From: an uncultured Alphaproteobacteria bacterium
GTDB lineage: Bacteria; Pseudomonadota; Alphaproteobacteria; GCA-2731375
Length of the DNA: 64,000 nt
Assembly: GCA_951812805.1 (NCBI GenBank)
Contig: CATOSZ010000003.1
Span: 946,557 to 1,010,556, forward strand
Reading direction: 5' to 3'
The position numbers and the translations under genes are program-made. Below are positions 41,182 through 59,049 of the stretch, piece after piece (the first letter of the stretch is position 1; each line of letters opens with the position of its first letter). The notes below the pieces were generated by a model that was not told the DNA's origin, did no database searches, and saw nothing but the letters and a program-made list of their open reading frames with translations.

Positions 41182-42282
41182 TCAGGCCGCGAGGTTGTAG
41201 AGCTTCTTCACGTTGCCGCGCAGGATCGCGTCGCGATTCACCGCCGTAAGATCGGCGGTGTGTTCGGCCAGCATCTCCTGGCTCCAGGGCCAGGTCGAAT
41301 CGCTGTGCGGAAAATCGTTGGCCCACATCAACCGCTCCGGATTCAGCATGCCGGTCGACTTGAAGGCGGTCCAATCGTCCTGGAAGGTCATGTAGACGTT
41401 CTCGCGGAAATACTCGCTCGGCAGCTTGGCCATCTCCGGGCACTTCAGCCAATAGCGGTGGCGCTTGTAGGCATGGTCCATGCGGTACATGTAGTGCGGC
41501 ACCCAGCCGGCGTCCGCCTCGACGCAGACCAGTTTCAGATCGGGGTGACGTTCGAAGACGCCGCCGAAGATGAAGGTGCCGATGATGTCCTGGCAGCCGC
41601 GGATGATGGCGAGGAAGCTGTTGATCTTCGGGCCGCGATAGAGCCGGAGATCGTCGTTCCGCGAGGTGAGAATGTGGAAGGAGAGCGGCAGGTCCAGATC
41701 GATCGCCGCCTCCCACAACGGGTCGTACATCGGGTCGTCATAGTCCGCCTGCACCGGATTGCCGGGCATCATCACGCCCTTGAAGCCCATCTCCTTGATG
41801 CGGCGGAGATCCTCGATCCCCTCCTCCACCGAGCGCATGGCGGTCTGGCCGCAGCCGATCAGCCGGTCCGGCGCGCTCTCGCAATAGGCCTGGAGCCAGC
41901 GGTTGTAGGCATCGAAACAGGCCTTCTTATAGTCGGCATCCTCGTGATTGCAGAGCAGCATGCCGACGGTCGGATAGATCACCTCGGCGGCGATGCCGTC
42001 GCGGTCCTGGTCGGCTAGGCGCTGCACCGGGTCCCAGCCGCCGCGATGCAGCTCCTCGAACTTGGCGCCCTTGGCCTTCAGCTCGCTCGGATCCTTGCCG
42101 GCGGCGGCGACCAGGCCCATGGGAATCGGCGTCGACAGATCGTGGATGACATAAATGTCGCCCAGCTTCTCGTCGTTGTGGATGCGGGGGGCGGTGTCGC
42201 GATACTTGGGATCGATGTGGTCGATGTAGCAATTCGGCGGCTCGGTGATGTGCGAATCGGCCGAAATCGGTTTCATGTCCAT
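41182..42282 (-). CDS. Amidohydrolase-2 family protein
   Basis: A 366-residue TIM-barrel hydrolase/decarboxylase: the start ISADSHITEPPNCY replaces the usual HxH with DSH, as in the 2-amino-3-carboxymuconate semialdehyde decarboxylase branch; also MGFKGVMMPGNP, LSFHILTSR, KLVCVEADAGWVPHYMYRMD and MWANDFPHSDSTWP with the distal Asp. ATG 42282 has GGGAG upstream; the longer frame to 42582 lies in non-coding DNA. First gene of the hydrolase group read leftward. Confidence 0.88.
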   Translation of the reverse strand: MDMKPISADSHITEPPNCYIDHIDPKYRDTAPRIHNDEKLGDIYVIHDLSTPIPMGLVAAAGKDPSELKAKGAKFEELHRGGWDPVQRLADQDRDGIAAEVIYPTVGMLLCNHEDADYKKACFDAYNRWLQAYCESAPDRLIGCGQTAMRSVEEGIEDLRRIKEMGFKGVMMPGNPVQADYDDPMYDPLWEAAIDLDLPLSFHILTSRNDDLRLYRGPKINSFLAIIRGCQDIIGTFIFGGVFERHPDLKLVCVEADAGWVPHYMYRMDHAYKRHRYWLKCPEMAKLPSEYFRENVYMTFQDDWTAFKSTGMLNPERLMWANDFPHSDSTWPWSQEMLAEHTADLTAVNRDAILRGNVKKLYNLAA

Positions 42283-43480
42283 GGCGATCTGCTCCCTGTT
42301 CGTCGCGCGCCGAATCGTGCCCGGCGCCTCGTTGCCGGACATCTTAGCATGCGGGTCGTAGGCTGTGGATATTTTCGAACGAGCATTCGGAACATGCCCA
42401 ATGTCCCGCTCCGGCCCCCAACCTGTTGGGGTTGCACGGCCGCCAGCCACAAAATTTTGTTGCAATCGGCCGGAAAACTTGCTAAGCACCCGCCAACGGT
42501 AAGGGCGCCGGGTCACGTGGTGGTTGGGACCACGTGAATGCTTTCCCGAAGAAAAGCGCCCGACGCCCTCGGAGCTGGTCACGCTCCCGACACGCGCTTC
42601 GTCACGGTACCGGACGGGTTAGGCGGATCTCGATGTAAATCGCGGTCCGCTTTGCCGTTTCGCGTCCCCCGGCCCGGTCTTTCGACCGTGTCGGGCGCGC
42701 CCGGCCTCCGGGTGCCTCGGCGCCTCGGGTCCCGAGGATGCGCGGGCCGGGCCGAAACCCGTCGTCGCGCCGCCTCGCGCCCCGCGCCTCGCCGCCCGGG
42801 CCGCCGTATTCTGCCGGATCGCGGCGCCAACGAGGCCTCGAGAGGTCCTCGACCACGGCGTCTCGCACTCCGACCGACCGCTCGCGAGGTTGCGCGTCCG
42901 AAAACACGGTCCCCTCCGCGCGCGGCCCCGTCTCGAAGGTCCGGGCTCGTCGCGCTTCGGCGACCGAGGCCGCCGTCGCGCCGAGCCGGCACCCCTGCCC
43001 CCGAAGGGGAACGGGGCCGGCAGACCCGCGCCGCGTCGACGACAAGCTCCGAAAAGCCGTGCCGCCGCGCGGGGCGCGGAATCGCGCCGCCTCCGAATCG
43101 AAGGGCACCGACCCCGCCACGCGATCCGAGGACCGCGCCGCGAAATCCGCCTCCCCTCGCCCGGCGATGCCATTGCGCCCGCCGCCCGTCACGCCGTCCC
43201 ACGATTGGTTCGAAGACCACCGCAGACCCCCGTGAAGGGGAATGCGTCGTGAGACCCGCAACGCCCGGCCGGCGACACCGCCAGCGGAGAACACGTCGCT
43301 CCGCTGTCGGAAAGTCCAGCGCCGAAGCCCCGGTCTTCCCGTTCGAAATCCGCCTGTCCGAAACACCGCCGCGGCCCCGGAGCCACCCCCGAAAGGGTTG
43401 CCCGCCACCGCCTTGGCCGTCCCGGTCACACCGATTTCGACGCCAACGCGTGCAAGTAAATCCTGACAGAAATCGAAGAC
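42283..43480. other. Gene-free, very GC-rich stretch
   Basis: No convincing gene. Several frames on both strands stay open for 100-370 codons, but their products are Arg-, Pro- and Ala-rich without any recognisable domain, which is what stop-poor GC-rich DNA yields. From 42540 on, the plus strand is clearly C-rich over G. Short hairpins of the CCCCGAAGGGG type recur. A DnaA-box-like TGTGGATAT lies at 42364-42372. It borders the DnaA-box cluster. Confidence 0.6.
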
Positions 43481-43620
43481 ACGGCAAGCAAAAACTTTTG
43501 CTTCGGCAAACAAACTTGTGTATAAGCCGGCAAGCTCGCGAATATTAATCCACAAGTTTTCCACAGAATTATCCACACTACTGGTAAATACTTGCAACAG
43601 CAGAAAAATCCGGGTTCGGA
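43481..43620. other. oriC: Candidate replication origin: AT-rich patch with clustered DnaA boxes
   Basis: An AT-rich patch in otherwise GC-rich DNA holds four DnaA-box-like 9-mers in 61 bp: TGTGTATAA at 43517-43525 (perfect box TTATACACA on the minus strand), TAATCCACA at 43546-43554 (one mismatch), TTTTCCACA at 43557-43565 (relaxed match) and TTATCCACA at 43569-43577 (perfect). The last three are direct repeats 11 and 12 bp apart, i.e. on the same helix face. Flanking genes are not the usual oriC neighbours, so a DnaA-titration or regulatory site is also possible. Confidence 0.6.
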
Positions 43621-43725
43621 CAGGTGGCCTTTCCAGGGCCACATTTTGTTGAGATACTTCGGCGAAACTCAGAGCCATCCGTGCCGCCCGGCGCGGGGCC
43701 GACAATTGCTCTCGAGGGGCCGACG

Positions 43726-44358
43726 ATGCGAATCTGTTCGACGCGACGTGCGCTGCTATTTGGCCTGCCCGCCCTGGCGCTCCTGCCGGGTCCGGCGTTG
43801 GCCGCGGCGAGCCGGGCGGAGGTCGACGGTGCGGCCGAGTTCATGCGCTGGCTGGCGGGCCAGGCGATCGCCGTGTTGCAGGCGAACAGCGGCAGCTTGG
43901 AACAGCGCGAAACGGCCTTCCGTCGGCTACTGGCCCAGGGCTTCGACGTCGGCTTCATCGGGCGATTCGCGCTCGGCCGGCACTGGCGCGGGGCCAGCGC
44001 CCAGCAACAGCGCGACTATCTGCAAGTGTTTTCCGAGTATCTTCTGGCGACCTATTCCCGCCGCCTCGGCGGCTACGCGGGTGAGCGCTTCGATATCTCC
44101 GGTGCCAAGGCCAAGGGCAAGCGCGATATCCTCGTCGCCACCCGGATCCAGCGCCCGGGCGGCCAGGCGATCCATGCCGACTGGCGCGTTCGGGTGATCG
44201 ACGGTCACTACAAGATCATCGACGTCGCGGTCGAAGGCGTGTCGATGGCGGTCACCCAGCGCGCCGAGTTCGCAGCCGTGGTCAAGAGCCACGGGGTCGA
44301 CGGCCTGCTGCAGGCCTTGCGCGCGCGCACGCAGACCTTCTCGGCCCGCGCTTCCTGA
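43726..44358 (+). CDS. MlaC/Ttg2D-like phospholipid-binding periplasmic protein
   Basis: A 210-residue exported protein with a signal peptide carrying RR (STRRALLFGLPALALLPGPALA) and the Tol_Tol_Ttg2/MlaC pattern: RLLAQGFDVGFIGRFALGRHW, QRDYLQVFSEYLLATYSRRL and DWRVRVIDGHYKIIDVAVEGVSM. Such proteins carry phospholipids between outer and inner membrane for the Mla ABC system, but no other mla gene is next to it here. Confidence 0.87.
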   Translation: MRICSTRRALLFGLPALALLPGPALAAASRAEVDGAAEFMRWLAGQAIAVLQANSGSLEQRETAFRRLLAQGFDVGFIGRFALGRHWRGASAQQQRDYLQVFSEYLLATYSRRLGGYAGERFDISGAKAKGKRDILVATRIQRPGGQAIHADWRVRVIDGHYKIIDVAVEGVSMAVTQRAEFAAVVKSHGVDGLLQALRARTQTFSARAS

Positions 44359-58317: not shown

Positions 58318-59049
58318 CTACTTTTGTCGTCGCTGTTTGCTTTGTGCGAAGCGGTAAGACATGTTGCCTGTTTCGATGATTGCGCAGTGATGCGTTACAC
58401 GATCCAGCAACGCGGTTGTTATTTTTGCATCTCCGAAGACGGAGACCCATTCCCCGAACTCCAGATTGGTGGTGATGATGACGCTGGTCTTCTCATAGAG
58501 TTTGCTGATCAGGTGGAACAAGAGCGCACCGCCGGATTTGGGGAATGGGATATAGCCCAGTTCGTCGATGATGACGCAATCCATGGCCGTCAGTTGCCGG
58601 ATGATCTTGCCGGCGTTGCCTTCGGCCTGTTCCTTGATCAGCGCATTGATCAGATCGACGGCGTTGAAGAAACGGACCTTCTTTCCCTGATTGATCAACA
58701 GCGTCCCCAGAGCAATGGCGATGTGGGTTTTGCCCGTACCGGTTCCGCCCACCAGAATGAGGTTGTGGGCCTCCTGGGTGAACTGCCCTGAGCAGAAGGG
58801 GTCGATTTGCGCTTGGGTGACGGCGGCTAGGCCGTAATCGAAAGTGGCGAAGTCCTTATGGTGGGGGAACTTCGAGGCCCGCATTTGGTGCTGGATAGAG
58901 CGCACCCGGCGCTCTACAGTCTCGGCGTCGATCAGTTGCTTTATCGCAGTGGTCAGACTTGGCGGCTTGCGCGCGGCCAGCAAAGCTTCGGCGCAAGCCG
59001 CCATTCCATACAGCCTCAGGGCGATCAGTTGGTCTATCAAAGCTTTCAT
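58318..59049 (-). CDS. istB: IS21-family helper ATPase IstB
   Basis: A 243-residue AAA+ ATPase assisting IstA in strand transfer. Walker [12 protein letters not shown], Walker [13 protein letters not shown] and [13 protein letters not shown] (sensor 1) are intact. The ATG at 59049 overlaps the istA stop as ATGA, the typical coupling of this family. A longer frame starts at 59073 within istA. Confidence 0.93.

Follow-up and report, generated by a model that had tools for sequence, protein, structure and literature searches.

A phased cluster of DnaA boxes at a probable non-origin locus in an alphaproteobacterial genome

The DnaA-box cluster and its neighbours

The window, by which we mean the whole 64-kb stretch of DNA that was analysed (67.8% GC), covers positions 946557–1010556 of contig C3 in assembly G000, which comprises 7.42 Mb in 19 contigs. 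Within it, between an amidohydrolase gene and an mlaC-like gene, four DnaA boxes occupy a total of 61 bp in a non-coding AT-rich island (Table 1). The first box is inverted and the following three are direct, with direct-repeat spacings of 11 and 12 bp, which phases these three at about one helical turn. A first-pass annotation of the same DNA had described these boxes, their spacing and their span, as well as an AT-rich patch beside a stretch without genes; both descriptions hold, the second on the basis of the AT profile and the absence of codon periodicity in the adjoining 0.84 kb, which is non-coding. The most AT-rich 120-bp segments of the 64 kb centre on approximately position 43491, with 62% AT in a genome that is 68% GC.

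Table 1 Features around the DnaA-box cluster (window coordinates)
Feature	Position	Strand	Basis or remark
Amidohydro_2 gene	41182..42582	-	Pfam PF04909; longest frame given, the actual start being probably nearer 42.28 kb
Gene-free GC-rich stretch	42600..43440		No codon periodicity
AT-rich non-coding island around cluster	43441..43660		AT profile; maximum 0.67 AT over 60 bp
Weak rightward promoter-like pair TTGCTT-N17-TATAAG	43498..43526	+	Read from sequence; under scan threshold
DnaA box 1, TTATACACA	43517-43525	-	Exact; divergent from the other three
DnaA box 2, TAATCCACA	43546-43554	+	One mismatch
DnaA box 3, TTTTCCACA	43557-43565	+	Exact TTWTNCACA
Sigma70-like leftward promoter TTGCAA-N18-GATAAT	43568..43597	-	Consensus scan; predicted
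DnaA box 4, TTATCCACA	43569-43577	+	Exact; 12 bp from box 3
Terminator-like hairpin GTGGCCTTTCCAGGGCCAC-ATTTTGTT	43624..43642	+	Between cluster and mlaC
mlaC-like gene	43726..44358	+	Pfam PF05494

All three exact matches to TTWTNCACA in the 64-kb window fall inside the cluster; elsewhere in the same genome, seven exact boxes were found in 1.195 Mb of sampled sequence. At that density (7 per 1.195 Mb), the expected number of clusters of three boxes in 61 bp is 2 × 10−6 genome-wide, and simulations that kept the local AT-rich dinucleotides reached three boxes in fewer than 2 runs per 100,000. A search of the whole 7.42-Mb assembly for two exact direct boxes (TTWTNCACA-N0-30-TTWTNCACA) returned a single match, which is the window cluster. 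Chance origin of the cluster is excluded. The genome encodes DnaA at C18:33.9 kb with the canonical box-reading motif GGRDHTTVMHA, and this protein very likely binds the cluster.

Promoter-like sequences overlap boxes 1 and 4. The −10 hexamer of the leftward sigma70-like sequence overlaps box 4; this candidate promoter was the single hit of a consensus scan (1 found versus 0.1 expected) and is a sequence match only. The −10 of the weaker rightward pair overlaps box 1. The mlaC gene starts 149 bp to the right of the cluster, beyond a terminator-like hairpin with a fold z-score of −1.46 (3 such hairpins were found versus 1.6 expected).

The first-pass annotation had considered DnaA-dependent control of mlaC, which is possible for this species only: no DnaA boxes are present upstream of the mlaC orthologues of 12 relatives, and such control is thus not conserved. 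That the cluster is a species-specific, DnaA-controlled promoter of the mlaC–RidA–NIPSNAP genes, and nothing else, would fit both the proximity of the mlaC start and the behaviour of DnaA in Caulobacter, in which the double role of the protein as initiator and transcription factor is established (PMC8203912; PMC3193534). However, besides the lack of boxes in the orthologous regions, the hairpin separates the boxes from mlaC and the sole promoter-like site that passes the scan is directed away from it, and we regard this reading as unlikely.

On the left, the amidohydrolase matches orthologues elsewhere at 65–67% and is not the paralogue that adjoins the box site of the relatives described below; conservation in relatives of an origin beside an amidohydrolase gene was rejected, as the window gene is a different paralogue. 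An inverted repeat with two CACGTG cores, TCACGTGGT-N7-ACCACGTGA, lies upstream of this gene at window positions 42513–42537.

The gene-free stretch had no match in comparisons with Rfam, plasmids and phages. Plasmid origins commonly contain DnaA-box clusters, and a 21-bp core of the phased boxes matches four viral contigs exactly, a sharing that we take as shared function, not descent. Both points could suit the origin, or the remnant of an origin, of an integrated secondary replicon (plasmid, chromid or phage); yet nothing like the region turned up among plasmid or phage records, the nearby genes that were examined are metabolic, C3 has no ParB-type match and no integrase boundary was seen, all of which makes such a source highly improbable.

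The candidate chromosomal origin

The origin lies between hemE and the COG1806 gene (DUF299, PF03618) in Caulobacter and Rickettsia; in Wolbachia, these two genes were parted by rearrangement and the origin remained with hemE (PMC1914354). In the family of the window genome, all 14 relatives have a Caulobacter-like origin region of about 420 bp upstream of hemE. It is AT-rich, holds two to five degenerate boxes resembling TNATCCCCA and, in most relatives, includes a conserved CACAGGGATTCACTAnCTACCACTATCT..TTTAAAAA stretch. Wherever the upstream flank was read, the region is adjoined by the COG1806 gene, the product of which starts with MTTFHLHL or MTKFHLHL. In the relative G006, trmE–gidA–parAB and two parS sites lie about 10 kb from the hemE origin region, and at hemE itself GC skew rises abruptly from −0.05 to +0.08; KOPS around hemE (contig C32 of G006) are not polarised.

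In the window genome, hemE is located at C3:444 kb; the gene next to it on the upstream side is reductase-like, and no origin-type region is present there. The COG1806 gene is at C9:37751–38518, and upstream of it an origin-type region survives at C9:37.3–37.8 kb. Between C9:37331 and 37755 it contains six TNATCCCCA-type degenerate boxes (versus 0.26 expected), more densely packed than anywhere else in the 1.26 Mb of this genome that was sampled, and it carries CAATCCCCAGGATTCCC..AACAACGAACCACAATTTTCTTTTAAGAATCTTTGTTTTGTTC, a T-rich end that resembles an unwinding element. Past this end lies an IstB-like insertion sequence (IS) gene, at the place where all relatives have hemE. At C9:62–67 kb, 25 kb from the origin-type region, are trmE–gidA–rsmG–parA–parB and two parS sites (C9:63384 and 65387), the only two in the genome; these read CGTTTCACGTGAAACG, and a parS search with TGTTNCACGTGNAACA found none since the genome uses the former. 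Directly after parB, C9:67501–72500 reads as N, and the DnaA boxes of this par neighbourhood are assessed outside that stretch. In relatives whose contigs were read, parS is TGTTTCACGTGAAACA, and the 2-kb spacing of the two copies is kept family-wide. The cumulative GC skew of C9, computed from samples as for the rest of the genome, has a local minimum at 35–45 kb.

Given the COG1806 synteny, the degenerate boxes, the parS–parAB locus and the skew minimum, the chromosomal origin of this genome is most likely at C9:37.3–37.8 kb. The region was picked out from gene order and from the density of motifs; a nucleotide profile built on the origin region of the relatives does not match it, and also misses the intact region of G003.

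The proposal of the first-pass annotation that the window cluster may itself be an origin is unsupported in view of this conserved-type region on C9. The annotation had set against its own proposal a skew minimum and coverage peak elsewhere together with a better box cluster there: the minimum is present, locally, on C9, but the C9 boxes are weaker than those of the window (local AT content is similar). The genes that it named for locating, dnaA, parAB and hemE, lie at C18:33.9 kb, C9:62–67 kb and C3:444 kb, respectively. In common with a Caulobacter-type origin (Cori), the cluster consists of DnaA boxes in AT-rich, intergenic DNA of an alphaproteobacterium. It differs in its flanking genes (amidohydrolase and mlaC, with neither hemE nor COG1806 adjoining), in the lack of a nearby CtrA site (TTAA-N7-TTAA) and in the absence of parS or parAB within tens of kb, both being on C9; the Cori-type region is on that other contig.

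It could still be argued that the cluster is the functional chromosomal origin, relocated once IS-driven rearrangement had separated hemE and COG1806. It is the best DnaA-box cluster in the genome, is AT-rich and adjoins a gene-free stretch; the IS-like IstB gene now occupies what was the hemE side of the ancestral origin; and TTAATCCACAAGTTTTCCACAG bears a loose likeness to TTAATCCCC..TTTCACAGGGATTCAC of the relatives. However, the COG1806-linked origin-type region persists with parS–parAB nearby, the origin-region profile fails to match at the cluster, C3 has no ParB-type match, no CtrA site lies near the boxes, the IHF consensus is matched there only with two mismatches, and the GC skew shows no turn at C3:990 kb, polarity being weak in this IS-rich genome. 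We therefore consider relocation of the origin to this site very unlikely. We also rejected homology between the window and the origin region of the relatives: the profile search yielded nothing at the cluster, and a 30-bp likeness in a forced alignment is not significant.

GC skew and KOPS are weak in this IS-rich, rearranged 19-contig assembly, and replication arms cannot be drawn. Approximately 85 near-identical IstB (253 amino acids) IS copies are spread across the assembly, for example near 58467–58772 in the window, and could plausibly explain why the skew is scrambled. Four near-identical genes of around 588 amino acids with a ParB-like domain (C1:1653969, C7:19886, C9:17935 and C15:59596) are probably mobile.

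Phased DnaA pairs in related genomes

Ten relatives of one genus carry one phased DnaA pair at a non-origin locus that differs from that of the window. The pair reads [T/C]TWTNCACA-N3-TTATYCACA, with a spacing of 12 bp and, in some genomes, one mismatch in the first box; in most, a CtrA-like GTTAAC..TTAAC element follows about 40 bp downstream. It abuts the start of a conserved open reading frame (ORF) of 50–60 residues (SPYLQRPLRSLDQALKDQAD), for which Pfam gave no match above the cut-off. An acyl-CoA synthetase gene lies on one side of this site and, in several relatives, selB–selA on the other. Together, the pair, the CtrA-like element and the small ORF look like a cell-cycle-controlled promoter.

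This SelB-side box cluster was rejected as the origin of the relatives by unflipped KOPS polarity in both of the two contigs tested: on contig C1 of G005, 47 of 52 KOPS point in one direction with no flip at the box site, and on contig C1 of G006 they are mainly on the minus strand on both sides of it. Because ten relatives have such pairs and KOPS polarity is unflipped in these two contigs, non-origin phased DnaA sites are normal in the family of the window genome. Relatives typically combine weak origin boxes with one strong phased DnaA site elsewhere. A cluster of the window type at the mlaC locus is not conserved in the family; within its own genus, the window cluster corresponds to the relatives' pair, but it occupies a different locus and has neither the small ORF nor the CtrA site. 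The two are likened by their situation, which does not imply descent from a common site.

Known DnaA loci and a possible role

Several described elements gather DnaA outside an origin. The closest in kind are the non-origin DnaA-box clusters of Bacillus subtilis and Streptomyces, cited in PMC4585315 as delaying initiation. As described there, these are non-coding clusters of strong boxes away from oriC, as in the window; they lie near oriC. The window cluster and the candidate origin are on separate contigs. The trait that defines titration clusters, high-affinity boxes outside oriC, is present in the window cluster as judged by predicted affinity.

In the cores of Escherichia coli DARS1 and DARS2, the measured spacing is 12 bp within the direct pair and 14 bp between this pair and the inverted box that faces it (core also described in PMC5742627). 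Three boxes with a 12-bp direct pair and one inverted box can likewise be picked out in the window. However, the inverted box of DARS faces the pair by the CACA ends, whereas that of the window is on the other side, divergent and 29 bp away, and the window has three direct boxes in place of a pair; assignment to DARS fails on the placement of the inverted box. With E. coli datA, the cluster shares several strong boxes in intergenic DNA, but datA requires that its direct boxes be spaced around an IHF site (PMC5742627), and assignment to this class fails as every IHF-like match at the window cluster has at least two mismatches.

We propose, with a probability of roughly two in three, that the window cluster is a high-affinity DnaA locus, distinct from the origin, with a role in DnaA titration, in the control of nearby divergent transcription or in both; sequence alone does not separate these two functions. 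From binding onwards, we infer the steps as follows. DnaA filaments would assemble on the phased boxes, and the cluster would sequester DnaA for which the weak boxes at the true origin also compete, such that duplication of the locus could affect the timing of initiation. Bound DnaA may also occlude the two divergent promoter-like sequences at boxes 1 and 4. Local transcription would then respond to the level of DnaA, giving a leftward non-coding RNA and possibly rightward transcription towards mlaC.

The comparison suggests that genomes of this family have an origin with weak boxes and, at another place, one strong DnaA locus. A broader and rather doubtful extension, which we put forward tentatively, is that each genome keeps one strong, 12-bp-phased DnaA locus apart from its weak-box (TNATCCCCA type) origin, that the position of this locus varies by genus and that it acts in trans on replication timing and so would be free to change place. 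If true, this would be an analogue of datA or DARS that is undescribed in Alphaproteobacteria. In this genome, the 'best DnaA-box cluster' and the 'origin' can be told apart: a box-based origin finder would choose the window cluster and with it the wrong contig, although C9 is indicated by gene order, parS and the density of degenerate boxes. The suggested combination of a weak-box origin and a strong locus elsewhere makes non-origin titration or cell-cycle control directly testable in Alphaproteobacteria.

A separate observation concerns the relative G013, in which two exact DnaA boxes lie at positions 1863–1903 of contig C21, upstream of an apparent dnaB helicase gene, identified by eye from its translation.
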